DNA from: Isoetes taiwanensis
Lineage: Eukaryota; Streptophyta; Lycopodiopsida; Isoetales; Isoetaceae
Assembly (NCBI GenBank): GCA_021234155.1
Contig: JAJEKV010000058.1
Location: forward strand, 693,814-757,813
DNA length: 64,000 bases
Reading direction: 5' to 3'
Shown: piece after piece, positions 9,157 to 56,476 of the stretch
Position numbering within the stretch: position 1 is the first letter of the stretch
Layout of the letters: each line of letters opens with the position of its first letter
Notes under the pieces: model-generated
What the model was told of the DNA's origin: nothing
The model's input: the letters and a program-made list of their open reading frames with translations, nothing else
Databases searched by the model: none
Made by a program: the position numbers and the translations under genes

Positions 9157-10046
9157 TGTGACGTTCCAAGTATTTATACGGTATAAGTATAAATATGTTG
9201 ACACGTCACCAGGGATACATACGCCACATGGGGTATGGGAACCTAGGTGGTTCACTTAAAAAGGATTAAATTAGCTATGCTAATTTAATTATTAACAATA
9301 ATAACCTATAACTAAGGAACTAACATTTAAAAACCATAATTAAGTTAATTATGGTTTGGGAGGGCGCCACGTGGCCACCCTCGATTGGTTAGCATGATAA
9401 TGCTAATTGGGGTCAATAGGGTGGATCACCACCCCCATATCAGCCACAACTCACCTTGAGCAGTGGAGCGCCACCTTTGTGACCAGAGCTGAGCGCCACC
9501 TTGAGCAATTGGACGCCACCCTTCTTGCACAAGCTGAACACCCAGACCAAGAAGATGGAGATCCCCAACGACAATGGGTCGAGCCGAAACACAGGTGGGT
9601 GGCTAGTGTAGTTGTGAATTCTAGGATAAAAAAGCCCCACATGGGCACACACTGCTTGGGTTGCTGGTCTATTCTCTCTGTGTTTACTCGTAGGAACTAA
9701 CCCTTGATTGTAAAGGTAGGTTCTCTATATATTTCGATTCTGGTTTTGCTTGTAATGGATGGACTGGTGGTTGTTAGCCTAGTGTTACTCTGGAAATGGG
9801 GAATTAAGGGGTAGAGACCTCGGAGGCTATTTATTGTAGTATGCTCCTAGATAGAGCCCCTGTATTATCCAGATTAATTGCGGCACATGCACAAGAGCCC
9901 AGGTCATAGATGCTATGGTGCTGGCTTAGCACCGCACAAGGAACACAAAGGGTGAAGTCCTGAGGTGGGGTCTTGCCACGAACATAAAAGGCTCACAGGA
10001 CTCCTATAGCGAGCTAGACGATAGCCAGGTCACGTAGGGCGGGTAT
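9157..10046 (+). repeat. Probable 3' LTR of the chromovirus
   Basis: A purine-rich tract (about 9143-9156, GGAGGGGAGAA core) lies just downstream of pol, as expected for a polypurine tract. The sequence after it begins TGTGACGTTCC, a start typical of plant chromovirus LTRs. A plausible end is ...GGTCCGACA at 10046, because LTRs end in CA. No second copy is present to confirm either boundary, so the 3' limit is uncertain. Confidence 0.45.
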
Positions 10047-13596: not shown

Positions 13597-15257
13597 ATGG
13601 GGCTCTCCAAGCTGTTAATTAGCCGATTTCCGTCTTTGATGATTAGTACGAGAGCTTTGTCTAAATTCTCTAATGAGAACATCGATGCTTTAAATAAGGT
13701 AAAATACTTACTCTCTACCTTCATTATATCAATCTGGTTCAGGTAAAATTGTTTTTGTTCGAGCAGTTTGCATTGTACATCCAGTTGCATTATTCTTTGT
13801 ATCTACCTTGAAGTTTCTGGAACCCAATATCTGGAATGTTTCTCCTGGTATTGTATTGGTGGTAGTAAATATTCATAAACATTTCTAAAGTTTGGTTAAA
13901 CTGGTAATTGTCTGAAATGTTGAAGAACAACCTGTTCAAATGTACCAAAATGGCACGTGAAAGTTTGAAATTTATGTATGTTGGCCATCCAAGACGTGGG
14001 GTCTTCCATGGCAAAATCAAAGTTGCTGATGCCTTGGGGTACTTTGTCCACAGAAAGGCTAAAGGAAGACCCATGTGTAACGACGCTGGTGACAATTTGT
14101 TTTCCTTTTCAAATATAGCAGATTGAAGTGGGTCAATTGGTATGCTTTACACATTGGTAGCCACTTCATGAACAGAATTTGCTTTTTTGTTCTCTTTGTG
14201 GTGATTGTTGTAAAACAGTCCATGCAAAATGGAATTAGCCTTAAGGAATCCAAATGACACACCATGGCCCCCCCCCCCTTTTTTTTTGGCCTTTCGACAT
14301 GCAATATTAGTGTGTAGTGTTCATGCTACTTCTGGGAAGAAGACAAACAAATTTAATTCTTACGACAGCTACTAGTTAAGGTCCTTGAATTTTAATACTT
14401 CAGATACAGATACAGGAAATTTTTCATAAAGGTGTCCATTAGGAAAGTTCAAGCATTGAAAGAAAAATGCCAGCATTATTCTCAGTTTCATATCTAGCTA
14501 AATCTTAAATAAAATCAGAAGCTTAATCAAAATGGAACAACAACTTCAGTTTCATACACGGTTTTATGTGATCGCAAATGCATGCTATTGCTATTAGTAC
14601 ACAGAGTTGTGAGTTGTTTAGTCATACAAGGTGATTATTGTAATGATCCTCTTCTGGTTATGACAGGAATTTTTGTCCGTGTTTGGCGAATCAGATCAAG
14701 AGGGAACTTCTGGTTTCCCTCAAGCAAAGGTTCATGATTCCGAAGATACTCAAATTCCAGCAAATTATGGACGGCATCTTAGTCTCACACATATTGATGA
14801 ATCAGGAAGGGCTTCAATGGTAAATGTTTCAGGCAAATCTGACACAAGGAGGATTGCAGTGGCCTCTGGGAAAGTCCTCTTGGGTCCATTGACGTTTAGC
14901 TTGGTGGCTGCTAATAAGATAATGAAAGGGGATGTCCTTACGGTTGCGCAAGTAGCTGGAATACAGGCTGCAAAACAAACTAGCAACCTAATTCCCCTTT
15001 GCCACAATATTCTGTTGTCCAGTGTTAATGTTGATCTCAGGCTAAATGAAGCTGATAATGCTGTGGATATAAATGCAGAGGTGATGTCAGTTGGTCCAAC
15101 AGGTGTAGAAATGGAAGCAATGGTTGCTGTTTCTGTTGCTTGTCTCACTGTTTATGATATGTGTAAAGCTGCATCGAAGGAAATACAAATATGCAATATT
15201 CAATTGGAGTCGAAGTCTGGTGGAAAAAGTGGAGTTTGGACAAGAGCTCCTGAATAA
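13597..15257 (+). CDS. CNX3: Cyclic pyranopterin monophosphate synthase (MoaC/CNX3), mitochondrial
   Basis: This enzyme completes the first step of molybdenum cofactor synthesis: it converts the MoaA/CNX2 product to cyclic pyranopterin monophosphate, in plants in the mitochondrial matrix. I read two exons, 13597-13698 and 14667-15257, joined in phase 0 across a 968-bp GT-AG intron, giving 230 residues. Exon 1 encodes an arginine- and serine-rich presequence lacking acids (MGLSKLLISRFPSLMISTRA), then NIDALNK. Exon 2 has the whole MoaC domain: DTRRIAVASGKVLL, GIQAAKQTSNLIPLCHN (substrate-pocket His), TGVEMEAM and TVYDMCKAASKE (catalytic Asp/Lys region), and a KSGGKSGVW tail. The key residues are intact and the frame is open, so it is probably functional. 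The start was chosen because it is the ATG whose frame runs into a good donor (AAG|GTAAAA) and gives a credible presequence. Confidence 0.92.
13699..14666 (+). other. CNX3 intron
   Basis: The donor is GTAAAATACT at 13699 and the acceptor is TTATGACAG ending at 14666, after a pyrimidine stretch. The intron holds no gene. It includes an odd simple tract at about 14266-14290, where a run of C followed by a run of T is bounded by GGCC on both sides. Confidence 0.8.
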
Positions 15258-42446: not shown

Positions 42447-43436
42447 ATGAAGATTTTATCTTGGAACCTAAGGGGTATAAAAGGCCCTCTTAAAAGAAGA
42501 CGAGCTATTGCTCAAATTAGGCAATTCAATGCTGATATTATCATGCTCCAGGAATTGAGGTTACCTCAATTTGAATGTTCTAACTTGGCAGACTGGATCT
42601 CTCCTGGTAGTAATTCCATTTGGATTGAAGCCACATGTATTTCAGGAGGCCTTTGTATTATCTGGAAAAAGCTAAATCACACTTCCATATTCAATAGCCC
42701 TTGCAAAACTTGGCAGGCTGTTACTTTTTCCTCAGCTGAGAACAACTTTGGTATAATAAATATTTATGCTTCCACAGACTCAAGAGATAGAGAATCTCTC
42801 TGGTTGAATATAGACACTTGGTTGTCAAATCATAATAATTCAACAATATTGGGGGGAGACTTTAATAATACTCCATCCTGGGATCTCAAGGTGGGTAAAC
42901 AACTCAACTTACCTTGTAATGAGAAGATCTCCTGGAATAATCTCATTGATAATCATCTCTTACATCATATTCCATCTTCAACTGCTAAATACACTTGGAG
43001 CAACAAGCAAGAGGGCAGTAAAAGAGTGTTCTGTGCCTTGGACAGATTTTACATCACAAATTTGACCAATGGCTTTTGGGACAATTGTCTGGTTACCAGT
43101 GATGAGTGCACCTCGATTTCAGACCATCAACCCCAATTCTTAACCATCAAACATGAAATCTCGATCACCAGACAAGGCAATATACCATTCAAATTCAATT
43201 GCTCTCTTTTGAAATCCGAGGCCTTATGTGCTGAATTCAAGTCTTTCTATTCTAATCTACCAAGAGTTAGCCTGAACAACTCTACATCCTTGAGGGAATT
43301 TTATGTTAATATCAAAGCAGCAAAAGGATGGATTAAAAATTGGGGAAAATTTATCATCTTCAGAAAAGTGTTGAGAAGAATAAATATCTTCATGAAATTA
43401 AGAGGGTTAGGTTGCAGCTTCAAGATGATCCTCTAA
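42447..43436 (+). pseudogene. LINE-B ORF2, APE endonuclease domain
   Basis: The ATG at 42447 opens MKILSWNLRGIKGPLKRRRA, the standard start of plant L1 ORF2. The active-site blocks follow in order: DIIMLQELRLP, GGLCIIWKKL, ILGGDFNNTP, KRVFCALDRFYIT and CTSISDHQPQFL. The endonuclease is complete to about residue 235 and looks intact. The frame then drifts: the linker to the reverse transcriptase continues in another frame at 43340-43591. Confidence 0.85.
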
Positions 43437-43599
43437 ATATTAATTTGCATTTATTAGAAGGTAATCTGGAAAATTCTATCAAATTAATAGAGGAACATGA
43501 GGCCAAAGGTGCTGCTATCTCTTGTAAGTTGAAATATCATGCCAATTTAGATAAGGAAAATTCCAAATTGACTGGAGACCTATTTCATTGACTAAATAA

Positions 43600-44128
43600 C
43601 ACTTCTTATAAGGTATGAGCAAAAATCATTGCCAATAGAGTCAAGGGCCATTTACAGAATGTTATAAGTCCTTCTCAATCTGCTTTTCTCCCAAATAGAT
43701 TTATTTTGGACAATTACATTGCTGCTGTTGAGGGGCTTCACTGGAATAGGCATACCAAACAAAATTGTATTCTTTTGAAATTAGATTTTTCAAAAGCCTT
43801 TGATACAGTTCATTGGAATTTTATTAACTTTGCTCTGAATTATCTTGGCTTCTCAGAAAAATTCATTCATTTGATTCATGGTTTGAACTCTAGATCTCAA
43901 TCTGCTGTATTGATCAATGGCTCTCCAGGCTCTTTCTTTCCTCTGGCAAGAGGGGTTAGACAAGGTTGTCCCCTTGCCCCCTATATCTTTATTGCTGTCA
44001 CTGAGATTCTCACTCGAGTGATCAACCACCAGCAGAGTCTTGGTAACATTAAGGGTTTGCTTTTGCCAGACAATACTTCAAATATGAATATTCTGCAATA
44101 TGCAGATGATTCCTTCAGCTTTCTCTAA
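43600..44128 (+). pseudogene. LINE-B ORF2, reverse transcriptase with internal deletion
   Basis: After LTGDLFH and stops at 43591-43618, the sequence jumps to AKIIANRVKGHLQNVISPSQ and FLPNRFILDNY, so the N-terminal reverse transcriptase motifs between them (roughly 150-200 residues in relatives) are missing. The rest is good: LLKLDFSKAFDTVHWNFINF, GVRQGCPLAPYIFIAVTEIL and ILQYADDSFSFL (catalytic YADD). A stop follows the YADD box at 44128. Confidence 0.8.
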
Positions 44129-45589
44129 AATGATGTCTCCAATATTAGTTCCTATCTTGAGATTATCAAGGCTTTTAGTGCAGCATCTGGCATTGCACTC
44201 AATCTCAATAAATGCAGCATTATTGGAGAGATAGACCAACCTTCTATTTGTGGAATTTCTTGCATAAACTCCTCTCAAGCTTCTAAACTATTGGGGTTAC
44301 CTTTGTCCTTGGACAGCAATATCAAGGGATTGTGGAATCCAATCATTTCCAATATCAAAAAGAAATTGAATTATTATGGAAACTGTCTTTCCATGGCAGG
44401 TAGAAGCATAATTGCCAATAATGTTATTGCAAGTTCTCACATTTATTTTTCGTCTGCCTTGCTTGTTCCAAAATCCATCTATTTACAGCTTGAGAAAATT
44501 GTTAGAAACTTTATTTGGGGCAAAAATCATCTCATCAACTGGAATTATCTTACAAAGCCAAAATCCAAAGGTGGCATTGGTTGTAAAAATCTCTTCCTTC
44601 GTGGTTCAAATTTTAGTTGGCAAGTATATCCGAAAACTCTTTTTCGTAAAAAACAACCCAGCTGCTATTTTTATTAGATATTGGTTGGAAAAGTGCAAAT
44701 TTAGAGGCCATCCAACTATTGATCATAGCCTGCTCCTGACATCTCTCCTATAATGAGAAATATGATCATTGCTTGGAATAAAATTTCGGGTTGTTATGAA
44801 CACCAAAGAGCCAATAACTTTAGCTCTCATACTTCAATCTTCTGGAATCCTATTTTGTCAAACTCCAGAAGTACTCCCCTCGCCTTCAAGCATCCTAGGA
44901 AAAATGTTGGTATTACTTCCATTGGGGATCTTCAAATGGATAATAGATGGATCACTTGGACAGCTTTGAAGAGGAAGTTAAATGGCACACTTTCAGATAA
45001 AAAGCTTTATAATCACATAAAAGCTGCTTTGTCTAATTTTGTTCTTGGAACAAACTCACTGCCTATGGATTGGATTTATAAGGGTAAGCCTAAGTACAAG
45101 GTCTCCACAGTGTACAGTCTCTTAGCTAATAATGATAAACCATCCAAAGCTAAATACTACTGGAATATCAATGATTAGCAAGATTCTGAACTTTGTAAGA
45201 ATATTTGGCTCTCCTTATGCACCCCTAAAATTTCCTTCTTTATCTGGTTACTGGCTAATAGGAGCTTGCCTAATCTGGAATCTGCTGCTAAGCTTTATAA
45301 TCCTAGCAGGCTTAAAAATGGACTGTCCCTTATTTCCTCAACCTGTGCTCTATGTCATGAATCTGCTGAGTCTATGATACATATTTTCCACTGCAGGAAG
45401 TTAAATGGTCTATGGAATTGGTGTGAAGATAACTTCAATGTCAAAAAAGCAAATTCTTTTATTGATTATTTTCTGACCAATGATGTATTCTATAACACTA
45501 TTCTTCACATTATTTTATGGAATATTTGGAAACACGGGAACAGATGCTTATATGGGAACCATCAGACTTCTATTTTCTGGATTAAATAA
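44129..45589 (+). pseudogene. LINE-B ORF2, thumb to zinc-binding reverse transcriptase tail
   Basis: Frames at 44291-44677, 44753-45178 and 45266-45589 cover the C-terminal half. KLLGLPLSLD and LSMAGRSIIANNVIASSHIY are typical of plant L1 enzymes after the palm. SLISSTCALCHESAESMIHI followed by FHCRKL is the zf-RVT zinc-binding motif (C-x2-C...H-x3-C type). It is broken by frameshifts at about 44130, 44680 and 45178. Confidence 0.75.
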
Positions 45590-46554
45590 ACATTATTCAT
45601 GAATTCCAGAGCACTGCCACTGTTCAGAAAGGGCAAAATGATTCTTTAAATGGAAAATGGAATAGTATTGGAAGATATTATGGAAAATTTAATTTATTTC
45701 AATTGCATTGTTCCAATACTAATAGTAGTCTTTTCTATGATTGTGCTAGAATATCTGGACTTCTGTAAGAGGGACCTGGACACCAGCTTTGATCTCAATG
45801 AAGCCATCAGATACAAGGGTCAGATTAATACTCAGGTCAATGCTTATCAGGATTTTTACTGGAAATCAAAAATTCATGAGAGAATCTTCCCTAGACTCGA
45901 AGAATTCCCGGTGTCAGAGATTCAATGGGGTTATGAGTTCTGCAAGAGCACCTACCAGATGTACACTGTTCTGGTTTCTGGAAATCAACAGTAGGCATAT
46001 GACAGAAAGGCAGTTTACATATTACAGAGAGTGCTACTACCATCACAGGGGAAAAGCAGATGTCTATGGGAATGTGTTGATTCTAATGGCCACATCCTGT
46101 GTCTCTGATCTTCTGGAATGCTTGGATTGGGGGAGACACACCAACTTTATCCTGAGCCCGACCTTCTCTGACCACTTTCCTTTCCTTGACCCATAAATCT
46201 TATTTCCTTAGCCAATAGTGTTGTCAAATTTTCATCCTTCATTTTCAGGTAATTGGCGACTTCGTGCTGCTTCAAGCTTTCTCAGACATTTCAGATCTTC
46301 AAGGAACAGATTTCTAGTACAATTCCTATTTTGACAAACTTCAGGAGATATCGGTTATGTTATGCAGTTCTTTGCATATCAATCCTTTTTTGGTTATGCA
46401 TTGAAATACTTTAATATTCTACCTTATGTTTCTGCTATATATTTTGCTTAATCATATTGTAGTATCTTGATCCTCCATGATCAAGTACTTCAACTACATG
46501 TACTTTTTAATCTATAATTAATGGAAAAAATCTCATTCCCTCAAAAAAAAAAAA
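45590..46554 (+). other. LINE-B 3' region and poly(A) tail
   Basis: Coding-like but frame-broken sequence (frames 45650-45994 and 45789-46196) follows the zinc motif; it could be a decayed RNase H region, but I cannot show catalytic residues. An AT-rich 3' UTR ends in 15 consecutive A at about 46540-46554, immediately followed by GAAGAAGATAATATC belonging to LINE-A. Confidence 0.6.
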
Positions 46555-46555
46555 A

Positions 46556-47530
46556 AAGAAGAAGATAATATCTCAATTTTCAGTTTCCAAAGATTTCATC
46601 TTGGTTATGTCTAGCCCGTTTATATTCCATGCACATAACCTGATGGTCGCGACTTTCTATTCGCGATCCTCTACCACTACTTTGCCTCCTCTCCAATAAG
46701 CGTGTTGCCCATTTTGCCTGGCCTCCTTCATTTTCTGGATCTCCCCTTGCCTTATTGCCTTGTGCTTTTGTTAAATTCTCGTTTATCCATTAGCTCAGCC
46801 CTTTTCTGTAAGACCTGGGATCTATGTTCCATGCTGGCGAATTTGACCACAATGTTTCTCCCTTCTTCGGATGGCCGGCCTACTCGAAAAGCATTGATTA
46901 TACCAGGTTCCCTTTTCAGTCAAAATTTTCCGGACCTCTTCCTTTGTATTTTTATGATCCCTTTCTAACAGCCCCACAAATCTCAAATTTAACTTTCTGA
47001 CGTCGCTCTTGCTATTCCAAGACATTATATATTCGCTCATTTAATTTATTAATGGCCATAGTACCGCCTTCTTCAGCTCCCATACAAGCCTGTTGTAGGT
47101 CAGATTCTTGCCTTGGATTTTCCTTCATCTTTATTATATCCTGCCTAATAGAAATGTTTTCTGCCCTTGATTGAAGTGATTAAGTCATACTTTGCATGAG
47201 TTCAAGCATTTTCGCTTCCCAGATTGCAGCTTCTTTTTTGGAGTATTCCATCATTTCCAATATCTTCATCATTAAATTGCGTGACACAGAGATTTCGGTA
47301 AGCATCTGATATAGGAACCCTTGTGTGCTGTCAAAGCCCATCCCTGGTACAGGTTGCATCCCAACAGTAGTAGGTGGGCAAAACACAGGGGGCATTCCTG
47401 TCTGTCCCATCGTCTGTGCCATGCCAAGGGACGATTGTGCCATGCCAAGAGACGACATTGGCTGAACAGAATCGTGGTTGTACTATCCCTGTTTTATCTG
47501 ATTCGTCCCAAACTATATCAAACAAAGTTG
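46556..47530 (-). mobile_element. LINE-A, 5' part: ORF1 and start of endonuclease
   Basis: Reading the minus strand from about 47530 down: an ORF1 protein, then the start of ORF2 with LCAWNINGLDITKMKSLETE (about 46640-46580), the WNxNG start of an APE endonuclease, and DIIF at the junction with LINE-B's poly(A). The remainder of the endonuclease and the reverse transcriptase are at 20880-23752. About 100 residues of endonuclease are missing between the two halves. Confidence 0.72.
46775..47458 (-). pseudogene. LINE-A ORF1 (L1 ORF1p/Transposase_22-like)
   Basis: The first frame (47458-47180) has methionine- and glycine-rich repeats (SSLGMAQ twice) and a helical end (EISVSRNLMMKILEMMEYSK) that could trimerise. 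After frameshifts, VRKLNLRFVGLLERDHKN and KEEVRKIL (47040-46940) and then, in another frame, AFRVGRPSEEGRNIVVKFAS followed by HRSQVLQKRAEL (46890-46790) match the RRM and C-terminal domains of L1 ORF1p-type nucleic-acid chaperones. This is a different ORF1 type from the DUF4283 protein of LINE-B. Confidence 0.65.
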
Positions 47531-47894
47531 CGTATTAAACGGGAGCAAATCATCGAAACGAGAGCGAAAGGAATATTCCTCAAAGATTCCTTTTTTTTTT
47601 TACAAAAGGGGATAAAACGAGGTTAAAAAAAAAAGATGCATGAAATTCTATTTTGACCCCCCCAAAAGTGACTAATTTTTTTGTGCAACGAAAGAATTGA
47701 CTTTTTTAAAGTGTCATTTTTCTTAGCAAATAGAATGTTCTTGAAGTATATTTTATGAGAGAAACCCTAATTTCAGAGGATAAAATATTTAACAAAAAGT
47801 TGAAGTTAGTCCGTAACTGAAACTGTAGTATTCTCAAAATTTGAAGATAGAATCTTCATATTCACATGCAAAATTTACAGTTTTTTTCTAAGAC
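47531..47894. other. No gene recognised
   Basis: AT-rich sequence between the 5' end of LINE-A and the stop codon of the DUF7869-like gene. I looked for an inverted match with 55328-55700 as possible element termini and found only a 12-bp word (AAAGATTCCTTT, 47578; inverted at about 55625-55636), which is too short to rely on. Confidence 0.35.
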
Positions 47895-50800
47895 TCAGTT
47901 ATGTGCAAAAGTATGAGGAGTGATGAAGGAGGGATCCAGGACGTCATCATGTTCATTTATGCCATCCTCATCACCTTCACTTCTTTCACTGTCACTAGAG
48001 GAAGTGCTTGAGTTATCTTCCTCATCACTATCAACAGATGGTGTAGCATTGCCACCACCTTCTTCATCCTCTTCTTCGTAATTACAAGCTTTTTTAAGCA
48101 AATTGATAGTCCTCCTCGTAGACGATTGTCAGATTTCAATTTAAAATCATAGCACAATATAGTCACGTCATTAAGGATCAGCTCATCCCTACAACCCACC
48201 TTCTTGGACTTTCTCCCTTTTCCTTGGCTTCTCATTTCTAACTCATATCTACCTTCAAAAGCATTTTCTGAGCGTGTTGCAAGCCAATGAATCTTGAGTT
48301 TAGTGACTAAGCCTTCCTCCTTGACTGTGTCAAGCACTTTTGCTATCCGAAAGGTCGATTTGTCATCCTCCTCGGTTGGAAGAGCAATTAGCATACCCTT
48401 GGTAATTTCGTGTGATATTACCTTGAGGCTCATTCCTGCGTCTTGGTTCGAGGTACATGACTCGATCCTCGCTCTTCTTCTAACTCGCAGGTGCTAATGT
48501 AGCATTGCTTGGACCTGCTTGGTGTTTGGGGTTGATGGAAGGTGTTAGGCCATCCAAATGGTTCTTGCAACCGTCTTAGAGCTATATTTTTTCACAACAA
48601 TTTTTTTGTTCGAGAAAGAAATTACTCCACCACATCCGATCTTCTTCTAAGAAGTACTTAAAGCCCGAGGAAATTCCATTTTCATGGCTTTTAAGGATGA
48701 CTCGGGGTACTTTTCTTCCTTTGGACTCCTTAGGATTTTTGAGAGGAAGTTGTTCTCGCACGCTCTATGAAGGAAGTGTCCGGAATATATTTAAGGAAGC
48801 GTAATCCTCTCGGTGGACTCCAGTCCGGTGGTATACTTCTTCCCCAGAAGAAACTTCGCCATCCTTCAAGTAGAACTTGATGTGATGTTGAAAGGTGAGA
48901 TCATTCAACTTGTTCACGCCTTGTTCTCTCATGCAACGTTGAGAGAAAATAAACTCTCTGAAATCAGCAGTCTCCTTAAGAAGATCGATCACTGAAGTGG
49001 GAGTGTAAGAATCTTCAATAATTCGAACTAGTGTAGGAAGAGAGAAAGCCTTCTTCCTTCTAAGGCGCACAGAAAATCTGCTGAACATTTGGTCAATTTG
49101 ATCATGAGTGTGGCCTACAAGTAAGAAACCGAGCTTCACTTTTCTAAAGATCCCTAGCTCCACTAACATAGCACAGTATGCAAAGAGTGTTTGATTCTTG
49201 TTCTCCCTTGTAGTGTTGTCAAGTTGCAGGTAAAGCACTGGTGGTAATTGCTCTTGCTCGCACAGGACCTTGTTAAGAATTGTAATTGTGAGGTTCGGGT
49301 CACCATGCAAGTTTGGATATGTCAAAAATACTTTGCACTTTAGACTTCCTTTGAAGACCATAGCTCCTACAAGGTGGACCTTAACAAAACATTCCTCCGC
49401 ACATCTTTAGGAATGTTCAAGAATTGTGGTAGAGTAGTTTTTTTTGGTCCATTCCATCAATCACAACAGACATATATATTGCGGTGGACGTTCAAGAGCT
49501 TTTTTTCGTGGCTTGGCAAGCTTTCTTCTCTCTCTGCGCTTGTTGTTCACGATGTCCGGCAAGGTTCTCATTGCACAATATCTCAGAAGAAATCAGGTCA
49601 AAGCACTTTCTTTAAAACAAGTGAGAGATTGGAGAACGTGAGCTTACTTCTTTCGACCTCTGTCTTTGCAGTTTCTCGTTGACTCTTTAATTCTGCACAC
49701 CTTGAGCAAACAGACATTCTATGTTTTCTGGGAATTTTCACAAGACCGAATTCACTTTTCCACAAAATCGGTGAAGTGTGAGTAAGAGATGTCTTTGAAG
49801 CCGAAAGCAAGTCTCGTTGTACTCATTGAAAACATCTTTTTGGTGATGTTATCGCTTAAATGATACATGTTGTCATTAGGTAGTTTCTCACATGTTTCTC
49901 TGAAATATTTCTCCATCCATGACACAAAGAAAAAGGGCATGCATGGTTACAACTCTTCTTGGTCCACAATGATCATCGATTGCTGGATTTTTGTCCAGTC
50001 TTTTATGTATTCTAGACATTCTGGTGGACCCTAAACGGTGGACAACCATAAAACATTTCTGGCAAACTTCTTCACGGTTAATGTAGTGCAAGAAGGTGTT
50101 GCGGTCTGGTTTTACATGATAAGCTAAGTAGGCATTCTGGTCTGCCAATGTCATGGAACTGTAGTTGTCTCTAACTGCCCGTAATTTAGCCATGTTAAAT
50201 CTGTTAATGCAACCCAATGAGCAGCATTTAGTTCTCAAGAGTTTCCTCATTTTGTGTTCATCCATAAGATTTCTTCTTCTTACAGAGGAGCACGCCCTCA
50301 AACCAAAATCCACCTTGAATTTCTTCGAAGATTGGCTGGAGAACATGTAATCTCTTTGTTCCTCGTTGGGGTTTTCATCTTCTGATGAAACTTCTACTCT
50401 GGGGGTGACTTCCTCTGTCCTGAGTGGTGTGTTTGTAGAGGAAAACAGACCACGTGAAGTTGTTCCCGGAAAAGGCGGTGGTACAGTGTTAAAGGATGGT
50501 GATGGCCCATAAGAGGTTGTGGCATCAGCTGTTCTTGTACCATCTTGAAAAGGAGTTCTTGCAAACATCTCCTTTAGAGCGGACTGGAATTCTGCAAAGC
50601 CATGTGTCACAACCGTTGTGTGAAGAGGAGTGCATGCTGGAGCATCGTCCTCATTTGTAGTGAAGTCCTGGTGAGAGAAATTGTAGTGAATCTCACAGTC
50701 TTCTTTACTTTCTGTGTTCCTTGTATGTTTGAATGAAGGGGGCGAAGCTACAAATGGGGGGGAGGGGAGTAGCTTGTTCTTGAACACCCGTTGTTGTGGA

Positions 50801-51063
50801 GCTTCTGTAGGTCCCGGGGATGGAACAAAGGGTGGTGGCAACATGCTCCGAACAGGACTTGGTGACGGTTGGAAGGGTGATGGAAGTCTGTTACGTGCTG
50901 GACTCGGTGTGTCTTCGAGAAGCAACAACGACGAAGATGATGTAGGAGTCGGAGAATGCCGGTCTTCAGTAGAAATAACGTTGTTCCCAAGCGTGTCCTC
51001 AGAACTAGACGAGTTTGAGACAACAAAAGGTGGTGGAAGCTTGTTCACGAAGCGGTTCGTCAT
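47895..51063 (-). pseudogene. DUF7869-like protein, possible transposase of the methyltransferase element
   Basis: The minus-strand ATG at 51063 opens a 390-residue frame: a proline/serine-rich, probably disordered half (PPPFVVSNSSSS), then a cysteine-containing domain (KCCSLGCINRFNMAKLRAVR, CQKCFMVVHRLG). Later frames give WMEKYFRETCEKLPNDNMYH, PRKHRMSVCSRCAELKSQRE, SVVIDGMDQKKTTLPQFLNI, YLQLDNTTRENKNQTLFAYC and FLLVGHTHDQIDQMFSRFSV. The spaced DGMDQ, LDN..ENKN and GHTHxxID motifs are those I associate with DUF7869, a family widespread in eukaryotes with a possible RNase H-like fold. A C-terminal module (TKGMLIALPTEEDDKSTFRI) and an acidic tail end at 47895. At least five frameshifts or stops break it. 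It is divergent from the methyltransferase gene, 754 bp away. Confidence 0.65.
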
Positions 51064-51817
51064 TTTAACAACTGCAAAATAGTGAAGAGATTTGAGAAAC
51101 CTTCTGTAGTGCAGAGCTTTTCTTATTCCCGAATACACGCCCACGTAGTACAAGTAGAAGTTCCAGTACTAATCAAGTGAAAGTCAAAATAAAAGCTATT
51201 CTGGAATACACAGGATTAGGATAATAGAGCCAAACGTATTCCGCTTCACATAGGAAAAGTGCAAGACGAAAATGATACCTTTAAAAGGAAATTTCGGCGC
51301 CTTCAGTTGCGTATTCCAGTCTCTGAGCTCAAGTCGCCAGCGCCAGCGCCTTCGATTAAAATATTCAGAGACTGTATTCCGATCGACATAGAGAAAAATG
51401 GAGAGGTGAGTTAGAAAGTACAACGTACAATCATTTGTGTGCTTGTTTGTTATTCCCGAATACACTATCGCCTTCACTCGAAGGCGAAGGTGTATTCCGG
51501 AATACACTTTCGACTTCGCGTGAAGGCGAAAGTGTATTCCGGAATACACTGTCCACTTCTGGGTTTGAAAGGTCTTTTCTTGCGCTATTTTTAGGCGTTT
51601 TTTAGGCTTTTTAGACTTGTTTAAGCCTGTTTTTGTGTCAAGGTTGCACTCTTGTTTTTGCCTTTTTGACCTGTTTTTGTACTATTTTGTCTTTTGTTTA
51701 AGACATTTTGTATTCTGGAATAGCTTTCTACCACTGTTTTCACTAACAAAGTCGTGTTTACACTTAAATGTGTACAGGCAAGAAAGCGGCAAGAAACATC
51801 AGAAGAAGCCCATCAAG
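51064..51817. promoter_or_regulatory. Shared divergent promoter region with palindromes
   Basis: The 754 bp between the two start codons contain at least three full copies of a palindrome near TATTCCGGAATACAC (about 51459, 51490 and 51531, spaced 30-40 bp), one TATTCTGGAATACAC at about 51202, one TATTCTGGAATAGC at 51710, and several half sites (GTATTCC at about 51236, 51314 and 51375). The spacers also contain inverted CTTCGxGTGAAGGCG words. The palindromes may be binding or modification sites for the encoded proteins. A T-rich stretch and TGTGTACAG|G at 51770-51778 could be a 5' UTR intron end. Confidence 0.6.
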
Positions 51818-53176
51818 ATGTCCCAGAAGCCGCACCCACAGAGAAGGGTTGAAGACGATGCTGCGCCTGCGATTTACGAAAACCCTCAAACGCAGTGGTT
51901 CTTTACTAGAGGAACATCTGGAAAGTACAGTACCCTTACCTTCTTGCATGTTTGTCGGAGTGCTGGGAATAAAAGGTACGATGACAGAGAGTTTGTTTGC
52001 ATGGGCACCATACAAGCTGTTAGTGAAATAGCCGGGGAGTCAGGACAACGAGGCAGACTACCCTTTGCGACGACCCAAGGATTTATTCATGTTGATGAAG
52101 CCTACTTTAGAATGATCAAAGTAAACCCGCCGGCGCTTTACAAGTATGTGTCTCACTACATCAACAAGAAACCGCTCAGTGTGATAATCAATGAGATTCG
52201 AAGCACAACAAGCGAAAACTTCGCTTACAGCGAGTCAGAGAAGGGGGAAGAGGAAGATAATGGGAGTGCTTCAGTGAGCCCATCAGGGAGCCCATCAGGG
52301 GGGTCATCAGATGGAGGGTCCCAAGAATAAGAAGCAGATGTTCCGCCAGTGCCGCCAAAAAAACAAAGCAGGCCAAGAGCCAACATAGCCGCTAAGGAAC
52401 CAAAGAAGCGGAAGGTAAAGCAGCTTGAAGTTGCTGAAATCGACGAGGAACAACCAAAAATGAAGAAGGGAAAGGGCAAGGCTCCTGGGGTGGCCATTAA
52501 AGAAAAGAAGGTGGATAAGACCTCAGAGAGGATGGAACAAATAAATCTTAACAAGTACGTTCAAGGGGTAATATACTTGCCAGTAACTTCCATGAGGTTG
52601 CCACTGAAGAATGAAGCTGGTGAGCGCCCCCTTCAGGTTCGAAAAATCTATGCTGATCATTTAAGAAATTTGAAGGACAGAATAAAGAGCAACCCCAATG
52701 CCCATGTTGCTCCAATTGTTGTTCTTGTTGATGTAACCCGATTGCATGGACCCCAAGGACTACTGACGAGAAAAATACTGATTACTTACATGCACTATGT
52801 CCTTGGGGGAAACCACCGCTTCAAAGCAAGGAGACAGTTTGTACAAAGAAAAACAACCCAAGATATCTCTCGTGCTCTGCTTGTTCTTTCTCGTGGGCCC
52901 GACATTGCATTTAAGAAGCCAAAATCGTTGCCAACACGCACAATGCTGACAACGAATATAAGCTGAAAATGAGCTTTGTGGACAAAATCAGGTTCATGCA
53001 CAGGGAATATATGATATTTAAAGACAAATATGGAGATGATTTGAAGAAACCACAATACTCATTGGAACTAAAGGAAGCGTGTCTTTGTGGAGTGTCAGCC
53101 AAATACGGCGAGGCTAACAAACGGCGCCTCTAATACCACACGACAACCGGTTCCAAATAGCCTTCGAGATGGCAGA

Positions 53177-53242
53177 GTAAGTTGTTTTTGTATTCTGGAA
53201 TACCCTGCAGCCCTCCCACTGATATCGCTTTCTTCTCTCCAG
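53177..53242 (+). other. Intron 1 of the methyltransferase gene
   Basis: Donor GTAAGTTG, acceptor TTCTCTCCAG, 66 bp. Despite its size it contains one copy of the element palindrome (GTATTCTGGAATACC, about 53191). Confidence 0.7.
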
Positions 53243-53473
53243 ATTTGGGACCTATAAAACGAAATATTCACCATGTTCGAGCGTGGTGATTTGAAAAGCA
53301 AAGGAAAGGTCTCCGAAAAGAAAAAAGGATCCGACGTCCCCAAAAAGGAAATGACAATCACCGTGGTGGCGAAAATGCGTGGGCTTCCGCGGATATGGAT
53401 ATACTAGAAAGGCTACGCAAAAAGGTTGTCGATAAAGAATTTACACTCAAGAAATGTCCAAGGAGCTCCACAA

Positions 53474-53857
53474 GTAAGAATGCCACTTTGTTTTTTGTTT
53501 GGTAGGGAGAAGTGTAGTTCGAAAAACATTGGCTCACACACGAAGGCCAAAGTGTATTCCGGAATACACTTTGGCTTTCATGTGTGAGTCAAAGTGTATT
53601 CTGGAATACACTTTGCCTTTCGTGCGAAAGACAAAGTGTATTCCAGAATACACTTTGGCTCACACGGCAAAGTGTATTCCAGAATACACTTTGACTCACA
53701 CACGAAAGCCAAAGTGTATTCTGGAATACACTTTGGCTTTCGTGTAAGAGCCAATGCGTATTCCAGAATACACTTTGGCTTACAGTTTTTTGAATAGTTC
53801 TTTCTTGTTGCTTTCCTTTTTAGTTTTCTTCCTTCTAACGTTTGTGTGGTGTTACAG
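53474..53857 (+). other. Intron 2 of the methyltransferase gene, carrying the palindrome array
   Basis: Donor GTAAGAATG after ...TCCACAA, acceptor GTGTTACAG before CCAGAAAAATG, 384 bp. In phase 2 it joins SKELH to QKNVITCQTC. Most of its length is the six-copy 42-bp repeat array. Confidence 0.7.
53549..53778. repeat. Array of six palindromes with 42-bp period
   Basis: Units AAAGTGTATTCCGGAATAC... (24-bp palindromes of form AAAGTGTATTCYRGAATACACTTT, written in two overlapping pieces) start at about 53549, 53591, 53633, 53669, 53711 and 53753, i.e. steps of 42, 42, 36, 42 and 42 bp. The spacers are variants of GGCTTTCGTGTGAGAGCC, themselves partly self-complementary. The centre alternates CCGG, CTGG and CCAG. 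The array lies entirely inside intron 2 and is bounded by the same GGCTCACAC word on both sides. Confidence 0.92.
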
Positions 53858-53996
53858 CCAGAAAAATGTCATCACATGTCAAACCTGCTTAATGGAACAA
53901 TTAAATGTTGACAGCTGGGAAAGGTGCAAAGAGCTTTATCCTATCGCAACCTCAGACGAAAGGATTGTCCAGTATGCCTCAAATGTTGAAGGCTGG

Positions 53997-54057
53997 GTAT
54001 GTTGATTTGTTTTTTATATTGTTGTTTTTCTTGTTACTAGGACGTTCTTTTTTGCAG
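53997..54057 (+). other. Intron 3 of the methyltransferase gene
   Basis: Donor GTATGTTG, long T-rich stretch, acceptor TTTTTTGCAG; 61 bp. It joins EGW to SKKKNKD in frame. No palindrome is present in this one. Confidence 0.7.
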
Positions 54058-54506
54058 AGCAAAAAGAAAAACAAAGACCTGCCGGAGGGCTTCATGCACT
54101 TGGTCGTGACAAATAGAGAAGAGAGGGAGGGGCGGACAAAAGTGTTCTAGATTCTGAGCCCTCCGATTACGAAAGGTTTACAATGTTCGATCAAAATAAC
54201 CTATTCTCTATTGTACACGGTGATTGCACCAAATTACCCAAATCAATAAAGCCCCAAGATTTTACCTTGGTAATAGCTGACCTTCCATATGGATTCAAGC
54301 TCAAAGACACCGCCACGTACTCTGACGACCCGACCATTTAAAAACTCGAGTTTAATGCTTTTCGTCGACGCATATAAAGATTACCACGCGGCAAAACATT
54401 GGAGGTTGGTCGTATTTCACTCAAGCATGCAATCCGGCCTTGTGGAAGCTGGTTTTAAAAATCATTTTGGTTCCCCTACGCAAGCTGGTTATGAAAACAT
54501 GGTTTG

Positions 54507-54657
54507 GTAAGCACTTATTCTGTAATACATATGTCCTTATATTTGTTTTAAGTTCTTTTCCTTTTAGTAACACCTGCGAGCAATGATAGGGGTTTCTATT
54601 CCGGAATACGTTTCCTTCGGCTGTACTTAAATCCTCTTTTCTTTTTTTGTTCTTAAG
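54507..54657 (+). other. Intron 4 of the methyltransferase gene
   Basis: Donor GTAAGCAC, acceptor GTTCTTAAG; 151 bp, splitting a TGG codon to join YENMVW to YKTNINY. It contains a palindrome variant, CTATTCCGGAATACG, at about 54595. Confidence 0.7.
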
Positions 54658-55327
54658 GTACAAAACAAATATAAATTACCATGGCGGAGGCCCTAGACTG
54701 TTGAGTAAAGTCGAATATCTCCACGTCGCTTATTGGAGTTTTGATGGGAAACGTACAATGGAACACTTCAACACAGCAGCGTGTCAGAACTTTTCGAACG
54801 TGTTGGAGTTTCCAGCGGTTTTGCAGAAGCTTCAGGACCCTAGTGCACAAGGAAGAATAGTGAATCACTATCAGAAGCCACAGAAGTTGATTAACCATCT
54901 TCTGGACATGTTCTCACGTCCAGGAGATTGGGTGCTCGACGCATTTTCTGGCTCTGGTACAACTATTGCTTGTGCACTAAAAAAGGGCCGTAACTGTGTA
55001 GCAATTGATATTGATAAGGAGGCTGTTAGTTTTATTAAAATGAGACTTGCTGCTTTACCAACTCTACCAGACGAGAATCAAGGGTTGGGGGCAAAGTCTA
55101 ATTCTGATTTTGCTAAGATGACATCATCAGAAATACAGCCTCCCTTTACAAGCTCCTTAGATGACGAAGCTACTTTTGCAGAGTTGAAAGAAGTAGCTCT
55201 TGCTGCCATACCGGAATCAACTACTGACACTGAGAAGCCTAAGTCACCAGAAAACGGTGAGAAGATACAAACCGACCAAGCAGAGAGCAGTAAGAAAAAT
55301 GAAGAAGACTACAATTTAGATCTCTGA

Positions 55328-56086
55328 CGGACCTTTTGCTGTGGTTAATTACTGATATTTATTATTGATTGCCATTACTGATGTAACAAAAAAACAGTAA
55401 AGAAATTATTATTATTATTTTTACTAAATTTGTGTTTTTTTATACATCCACCTACAAATAATTTTGTACTCATGTCTCAATTTTGCTATTTTCACGTGCT
55501 TCACTCCAAAAACGAAAGTCGTGTCCAAAAAATACCCCAAAACTAGGCCAAAAAAAAACTGATACTCCTAAAACTTTAAACCTCTCTTAAAAAAGCCCAT
55601 TTTTTAGAATGACGTGTTTTTTCTAAAGGAATCTTTCAAACGGGAGTGCTGCAACACTCCCGTTTAATTTGCAACCTTGTTATCAGCCCAACCTATAAAG
55701 CAGGTGGGTTTGCTACTGCAAAGCCTATTAACCCAACCTGTATCGGCCCATGTGAAACAGGTGGGTTTGCTGCTGTGATGAAAGTAGATGTTTAGCACTA
55801 CTGTGGAGAATTGGCAGATATGGAGGCTCTATTTTTCTCTAATCTTCTTGTACATAGTATAATTCCACTATGAATTTGAGCACACTACAAAAAATTTAAC
55901 ATCAACTTTTAAGTAGTTTTCACAACACATTACTTCATCTGACCACACCTAGCCTACATGTGGATATATGTGAATTACAATATGTGTTGCAACTAGTTCC
56001 ATTGAATATCAAACCTCGAATTGCTCTTATTTTTGTGCTTTGACTTGCCAGCAACTATAGCCTTATTTTTGTGCTTTAACTTGCCC
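55328..56086. other. Non-coding DNA with a short hairpin and a duplicated phrase
   Basis: No gene. A perfect 11-bp hairpin AAACGGGAGTG...CACTCCCGTTT is at 55638-55665. An approximate duplication (CAGGTGGGTTTGCT twice) lies at 55699-55776. A TTATTTTTGTGCTTT repeat pair is at about 56027 and 56062. The word GTCCAAAAAATACCCCAAAA at about 55523 resembles the arm of the MITE at 12958-13413. Confidence 0.5.
55638..55665. repeat. Perfect short hairpin
   Basis: AAACGGGAGTG and CACTCCCGTTT, 11 bp each, around a 6-base loop. It could be a transcription- or replication-related structure, or the tip of an element end. It lies about 310 bp after the methyltransferase stop. Confidence 0.7.
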
Positions 56087-56476
56087 AAAGGGGCATCAAA
56101 CATGTTAAGAAATTGAACTATTAAATTAAACTCCTCGTCCCCCCCCACCCCTCCCCTTCTCCCCCAGTTGTTTTTGCTGATATTCGTCCATCAGTATGCT
56201 CAGGCCATTGGATGTCAGTTTCGGACGATCCCAACCATCATTAGACGCAACTCGTTTTTTAGTAAGTTTTAGTTAACTGTCAGTTTAAAATACACAATTA
56301 ACCCAAATATTGTGAGATGCATTGTACACATGTACGATACACATATATTGACGTATGTATTTGGGGCTCCTCACCAACCGTTGGACGTCCTGCACGAATA
56401 TCAGCAAAAATAACTGGGGCGGTCCGGGGGTGTTTAATTTAATGGTTCAATTTCTTAATATGTTTGATGCCCCTTT
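56087..56476. mobile_element. MITE-like inverted-repeat element
   Basis: The left arm begins AAAGGGGCATCAAACATGTT and the right arm, inverted, AAAGGGGCATCAAACATATT. Matching continues through AAGAAATTGAACTATTAAAT and, further in, TTTTTGCTGATATTCGT. The arms are about 100 bp, interrupted by a C-rich tract (56141-56166), around a centre of about 180 bp. No clear target duplication. No coding capacity. Confidence 0.75.

Follow-up and report, generated by a model that had tools for sequence, protein, structure and literature searches.

A DUF7869 DNA transposon of Isoetes taiwanensis carries a predicted bacterial-type DNA methyltransferase gene and repeated palindromic sites

Several lineages of fungal DNA transposons have captured genes for TET/JBP dioxygenases, which oxidise 5-methylcytosine; in these elements, bounded by terminal inverted repeats (TIRs), the gene for the DNA-methylation enzyme lies beside the transposase gene, and genes pass between elements (PMC12730594). 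Retrotransposons of dinoflagellates and charophytes encode C5-cytosine DNA methyltransferases of the DNMT family, and DNA transposons with a DNMT are mentioned from marine viruses (PMC5890265). The bdelloid rotifer N4CMT is a bacterial-type, permuted PF01555 methyltransferase encoded by an allelic pair of host genes and fused to a chromodomain, and is stated to have no eukaryotic homologues (PMC8885841). Here, we describe a DNA transposon in a 64,000-nucleotide stretch of the Isoetes taiwanensis genome (contig JAJEKV010000058.1, positions 693,814 to 757,813; hereafter the window) that carries a gene for a DUF7869 protein and, divergent from it, a gene for a predicted DNA methyltransferase, M. 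It resembles the fungal elements in its TIRs, in the neighbourhood of its two genes and in the passage of genes between elements, and differs from them in encoding a predicted methyltransferase of bacterial type, to which a likely DNA-binding domain is joined, in its occurrence in a plant and in its repeated palindromes. Like the DNMT elements it encodes a DNA methyltransferase; those, in contrast, are retrotransposons, and their enzymes are not of PF01555. M shares its enzyme type with N4CMT, but is multicopy transposon cargo in which no chromodomain match was found. A search of one open-licence library, judged by titles and abstract openings, listed no paper on a eukaryotic DNA transposon that carries a PF01555 enzyme. 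DNA-modifying transposon cargo as such is already known; the palindromic sites and the exchange of modules between elements are new observations here.

The element spans window positions 47521-55681 (8,161 bp), its bounds being set by two 25-bp TIRs that are identical at 22 of 25 bases. The TIR pattern, with up to three mismatches allowed, matches the window exactly twice and 100 shuffled versions not at all. The termini read AACA, and ATCA stands directly outside both ends as a 4-bp target-site duplication (TSD). An earlier note on this stretch, made from its letters alone, had delimited two divergent genes at 47895..55327, had read them as a mobile element that captured a DNA-modification enzyme, with the DUF7869 protein as its likely transposase, and had advised a search for ends and target duplications. 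The motifs that it named are all present (as DGMDQ, LDNTTRENKN and GHTHDQID on the minus strand and as LGGNHRFKARR, DLPYG and DAFSGSGTT on the plus strand), and its reading is supported; the TIRs extend the bounds, and the ParB label that it gave to part of M is partly supported. Both genes are decayed in the window's copy, which would produce neither protein.

The genome searched was the 1,658,258,908-base assembly of 1,110 contigs that contains the window. A search with the DUF7869 exon gave 9,007 candidates, of which the best 150 were scored; these lie on many contigs, the weakest listed at 2.6e-95. We examined the 20 best copies outside the window, ranked by DUF7869-exon similarity, and two weaker ones, L043 and L044. 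Both ends were located in 13 of 21 elements (the window's and the 20), all 13 with a perfect 4-bp TSD (atca, tact, cttt, ttgc, attg, tctt, atat, acat, gcta, ccta, gttg, taag and ggta); the other eight showed a single end within the stretch fetched. L044, an older subfamily with different terminal repeats, retains both genes and a TSD, ggga, which makes 14 of 14, and L043 is broken, with no end and no piece of M found. In L035, another left end belonging to this element family begins at 9649, about 0.9 kb past the right end of the copy there. Terminal inverted repeats, a TSD of constant length and many dispersed copies are the marks of a TIR transposon, and by these sequence features the element is almost certainly a DNA transposon. 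The transposase parts of the chosen copies differ at synonymous sites by proportions (pS) of 0.00-0.14, which fits a recent spread. The Sola superfamily also has a TSD of 4 bp, an agreement in TSD length alone. Elements of the IS3EU superfamily have a 6-bp duplication and TAYGG ends (PMC12730594), neither of which is found here, with a 4-bp TSD and AACA ends.

Pieces of M accompany 19 of the 20 other transposase copies in the same divergent layout: the N-terminal region in 18, the ParB-like region in 19, the methyltransferase in 15 and all three in 15, with none in L029. When the genome was searched with the last exon of M (best 150 of 3,617 candidates scored, spread over many contigs, weakest listed 6.4e-109), 33 of the 150 methyltransferase places had a listed transposase place within 12 kb, compared with 0.33 pairs expected by chance; since each list comprises the best 150 places only, the other 117 are not judgeable. 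All but one of the 33 pairs, the window's included, are divergent, the exception having another orientation, and 26 of the 32 are 5.1-6.3 kb apart. By the earlier note's own account its reading would fall if the genes never co-occurred elsewhere or if the methyltransferase were a single-copy host gene. It withstood this test on the 19 copies and 32 divergent pairs; the 33 pairs rule out chance pairing, and at least 150 strong genomic places rule out a single-copy host gene.

The minus-strand gene of the window, stitched from seven frame pieces up to its catalytic part, matches PF25273 (DUF7869) at 2.6e-51 over positions 48768-49406. Its Asp and His motifs fall in conserved DUF7869 columns, from which an Asp triad is predicted. 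The fold prediction advised in the earlier note, made for the homologue P0002, revealed a resemblance to RNase H-type transposases and integrases; an RNase H-like fold with an acidic triad, as in DDE/D transposases, is thus predicted, and the model points to the DUF7869 protein as the likely RNase H-type transposase of the element. Proteins of the same Pfam family with conserved Asp and His motifs occur in Riccia, Ceratopteris, Adiantum, sea urchin, Clytia, oyster and Cymbomonas, and DUF7869 is unmentioned in the open-licence papers searched. In three gene models from Riccia and Adiantum (P0076, P0082 and P0041), DUF7869 is joined to reverse-transcriptase zinc-binding, cellulase or integrase domains; these are probably nested insertions or model errors. 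The modelled residues 384-492 of P0002, corresponding to window positions 47960-48493, weakly match BAH-type chains of plants and of DNMT1. This C-terminal region has no Pfam match and, if BAH-like as modelled, could guide target choice.

The plus-strand gene was said in the earlier note to contain introns, and four GT-AG introns can indeed be placed by prediction from the sequence, of which the donors of introns 1, 2 and 4 and the acceptor of intron 4 recur in most of eight other copies examined. In the window, M is interrupted by an in-frame TAA at 52328 and by frame breaks. PF01555 (N6_N4_Mtase) matches M at 4.5e-18 and motif IV precedes motif I, as in beta-class amino-methyltransferases; M is accordingly a predicted DNA methyltransferase of the N6-adenine or N4-cytosine type. 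No MT-A70 profile was among the Pfam matches of M at E values up to 1, which gives no ground for membership of MT-A70/METTL4. Among ten open reading frames (ORFs) of the element, none had a Pfam match to a nuclease partner, as would mark a restriction-modification system, and a PADLOC scan of three ORFs returned only methyltransferase or mad2 models among the best 25 of 64 matches.

M shares its domain and its order of motifs with phage and bacterial beta-class methyltransferases (phrog_67, 8.8e-28; CcrM, 1.8e-8), but is 22-27% identical to the phage enzymes (best 25 of 428 records) and differs from them in having predicted introns and in residing in a plant transposon. In two phage neighbourhoods examined, the methyltransferases were plain, with no fused domain annotated. 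Two scans of viral contigs turned up neither a relative of the methyltransferase exon nor one of DUF7869, so that no viral carrier was seen. A protein search with the core of M found, as sole close relatives outside the genome, three EukProt models labelled Gb_, which we take to stand for Ginkgo biloba (E values 2e-44, 1.8e-30 and 4.3e-29), followed by four weak hits (3.5e-4 to 0.036); region 250-800 of M gave one weak bacterial hit. The beta-class assignment of the earlier note holds, and a bacterial or phage origin of M is inferred from remote similarity.

The label "ParB-like" for the region upstream of the methyltransferase goes back to its motif LGGNHRFKARR. The GGNHS..ARR motif of the region aligns with GGCHSVEARR in P0124, one of the Gb_ models, and DUF6551 scores below its cut-off near the motif in P0122 (0.019) and P0124 (0.032). 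A search of the PDB with this part as a single sequence found nothing. By this motif, M has a putative ParB/sulfiredoxin-like domain.

Both genes are under purifying selection. The median ratio of nonsynonymous to synonymous substitution (dN/dS) is 0.22, 0.21 and 0.40 in three parts of the transposase and, in M, 0.09 in the N-terminal region, 0.13 in the ParB-like region, 0.04 in exon 5, 0.11 in the tail and, from only 16 pairs, 0.25 in the motif IV piece; for comparison, the value is 0.81 for an intron translated as if coding in eight copies. Gapped codons, stop codons and copies matching less than 70% of an exon were removed, and pairs were dropped at pS or pN (the nonsynonymous proportion) of at least 0.74, at dS of 0.02 or less, or with fewer than 40 shared codons. 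For exon 5, 81 of 120 pairs were kept, so that dS there serves as a guide to the lower bound and dN/dS is approximate.

The elements have exchanged methyltransferase modules with one another. The methyltransferase exons of 16 copies form four clades, with synonymous differences of 0.05-0.40 within and 0.63-0.87 between them, while the transposase core of the same elements differs by 0.00-0.14 only. Between L034 and L036, for example, pS is 0.67 for the methyltransferase but rounds to 0.00 for the transposase, and between L022 and L023 the values are 0.69 and 0.01. Choosing copies by their transposase similarity makes short transposase distances the expectation; the finding is the wide spread of the partner. 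Distances in the transposase core show no correlation with those in the methyltransferase exon (Spearman 0.05, Mantel p 0.36), whereas correlations are seen between the ParB-like part and the methyltransferase part (0.56, p 0.004) and between an upstream part of the transposase and M's N-terminal region (0.76, p 0.002). In five pairs compared, identity breaks near the intergenic array in some and inside M in others.

A further feature of these elements is a palindromic site. The 13 elements with both ends contain 168 matches to the pattern TATTCNNGAATA, with 4-17 in each element, and their flanks contain seven; the flank of at least L035 contains a piece of another element copy. Neighbouring units were selected by their spacing and by agreement at 7 or more of 12 bases; the consensus of the 69 units so obtained is CAAAGTGTATTCCGGAATACACTTTG. 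Of 99 spacings below 120 bp, 61 are 41 or 42 bp. Six sites of the window lie between the genes, eight in introns and none in exons. Genome-wide there are 2,585 occurrences of the exact 18-mer and none of its reversed control. The palindrome has CCGG at its centre; the two central bases of the 168 sites are CG in 63, TG in 42 and CA in 39 (144 in total), a pattern that decay of methylated CG would give.

Taken together, these results are best explained by a DUF7869 DNA transposon with M marking its own element, a reading from sequence to which we assign a probability of roughly 0.55. The DUF7869 transposase would cut and join with a 4-bp stagger; M would recognise the palindromic sites of its own element and methylate element DNA; and this methylation would govern how active the divergent promoters are and distinguish element DNA from host DNA, with the outcome that copy number is held in check or that host silencing is resisted. 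That M acts on the sites of its own element is a tentative part of this proposal, a little short of an even chance. It is rather doubtful that the ParB-like domain reads the 26-bp palindrome and the methyltransferase adds a bacterial-type mark there, so that the sites would serve as a parS-like self-label, with methyltransferase modules passing between elements as exchangeable cassettes. In such a self-address the palindromes of the introns and of the upstream region that both genes share might lie on one face of the helix, 42 bp being four turns, an arrangement that we hold with equal reserve.

Several observations weigh against a self-marking transposon. Copies were picked by transposase similarity, and with 150 of 9,007 candidates scored the counts do not describe all DUF7869 elements. 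The best fold match of the P0002 model has a Z score of 8.1, close to the level reached by models without a clear match. Motif IV of M is DLPYG, where DPPY is usual, and in the Gb_ models it is DIPHG (P0122), DISQG (P0123) or missing (P0124), so that these may be inactive or misannotated. Profiles of Pfam, PHROG, NCBIfam and PADLOC detect no ParB domain in M; a profile of 11 sequences matches sulfiredoxin at the motif with an E value of 2.9 and two unrelated chains, which reach 0.17 and 0.32; and the predicted structure of P0124, with a predicted local distance difference test score of 30.8, is useless. Finally, the arrays could be a minisatellite or act as RNA hairpins.

A related alternative is that the arrays are recombination hot spots or minisatellites that have no link to M and merely permit the exchange of modules. 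The fall in identity between L034 and L036 near the intergenic array is what this would produce, as is the lack of correlation between transposase and methyltransferase distances when parts within each gene are correlated. However, introns 1 and 4 of the window's copy, though short, also contain a single site each, 16 sites persist in the older L044, and identity between L023 and L027 drops in the ParB-like exon, outside the arrays; we consider this alternative rather unlikely.

Two narrower forms of the self-marking proposal differ in what the mark would do, and by our analysis each, taken singly, is unlikely. M's mark, or its binding to the palindromes, may block host CG methylation, a role also proposed for the TET/JBP genes of fungal transposons; the capture of DNA-modifying genes by several lineages of DNA transposons (PMC12730594) is in keeping with this, and so are the 144 sites with CG, TG or CA at the centre. 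The observed/expected CpG ratio of the 13 elements, however, is 0.52-0.84, like that of the window flanks (0.62 and 0.72), and gives no sign of protection. Alternatively, methylation of the element, coupled to replication, may limit transposition, as Dam methylation limits transposition of Tn10 and Tn5. Such a brake would agree with purifying selection on M and with the six palindromic sites in the shared upstream region of both genes, but the palindromes lie away from the terminal repeats. That M is a passive passenger, taken up from a host or bacterium and now dispensable, is highly improbable: stops in the matched exon at some listed places and the broken copy of the window are outweighed by a dN/dS of 0.04 among four deeply diverged clades close to saturation at synonymous sites and by unchanged catalytic motifs (motif IV in 11 of 12 and motif I in 9 of 9 copies where found). 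These motif counts come from a survey of copies without a frame-length filter.

Table 1. Features of the transposon (window positions)
Feature	Position	Strand	Basis or remark
Left target-site duplication, ATCA	47517..47520	.	same 4 bases outside both ends
Left TIR, 25 bp	47521..47545	+	0/100 shuffles; left end in 18/20 other copies with up to 5 mismatches
Transposase gene (DUF7869 protein), decayed	47898..51063	-	frame pieces, Pfam, protein search
Transposase C-terminal region	47960..48493	-	matching P0002 region predicted BAH-like
DUF7869 catalytic region, DGMDQ, LDN..ENKN and GHTHDQID, predicted Asp triad, several frame pieces	48768..49491	-	profile, conserved columns, predicted fold of homologue P0002
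Divergent intergenic region, 6 palindromic sites	51064..51817	.	likely promoters of both genes
Gene M, five predicted exons, decayed	51818..55324	+	frames, splice-site placement
M N-terminal region	51818..52327	+	present in 18/20 copies
M ParB/sulfiredoxin-like region (LGGNHRFKARR, 52802-52834)	52532..53130	+	motif; aligned to P0124; weak sulfiredoxin match
Predicted intron 1, GT-AG, 1 palindromic site	53177..53242	+	splice sites
Predicted intron 2, GT-AG, array of 6 palindromic sites spaced 36-42 bp	53474..53857	+	splice sites, repeat search
Predicted intron 3, GT-AG, without palindromic site	53997..54057	+	splice sites
Methyltransferase motif IV, DLPYG	54279..54293	+	DLPYG in 11/12 other copies with region found; DLSYG in L027
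Predicted intron 4, GT-AG, 1 palindromic site	54507..54657	+	splice sites
Methyltransferase motif I, DAFSGSGTT	54938..54964	+	DAFSGSGT in 9/9 other copies with motif found
Right TIR, 25 bp; hairpin of AAACGGGAGTG just inside	55657..55681	-	inverted-repeat search, shuffles, other copies
Right target-site duplication, ATCA	55682..55685	.	same 4 bases outside both ends

Elsewhere in the window, a pair of inverted repeats of 48 nucleotides each, 94% complementary and 294 nucleotides apart (56087-56476), marks a short element resembling a miniature inverted-repeat transposable element to the right of the transposon. By eye, a long interspersed nuclear element with endonuclease-like and reverse-transcriptase-like frames and a poly-A end lies upstream of it (42447-46557), and a frame at 14673-15257 resembles a plant MoaC-type molybdenum cofactor gene.

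Most DNA methylation in eukaryotes takes the form of 5-methylcytosine; whether plants also methylate adenine, or cytosine at N4, is a matter of debate. An element that has reached high copy number in a plant, with a bacterial-type methyltransferase under selection, offers a concrete enzyme and a predicted site (GTGTATTCCGGAATACAC) for testing on native reads. If the proposed self-address is real, it would be a parS-like self-label of a kind not known from eukaryotic transposons. DUF7869, a domain of unknown function, becomes the likely transposase of a widespread group of elements, and the Isoetes copies provide a case of a DNA-marking module that moves between transposons independently of the transposase.

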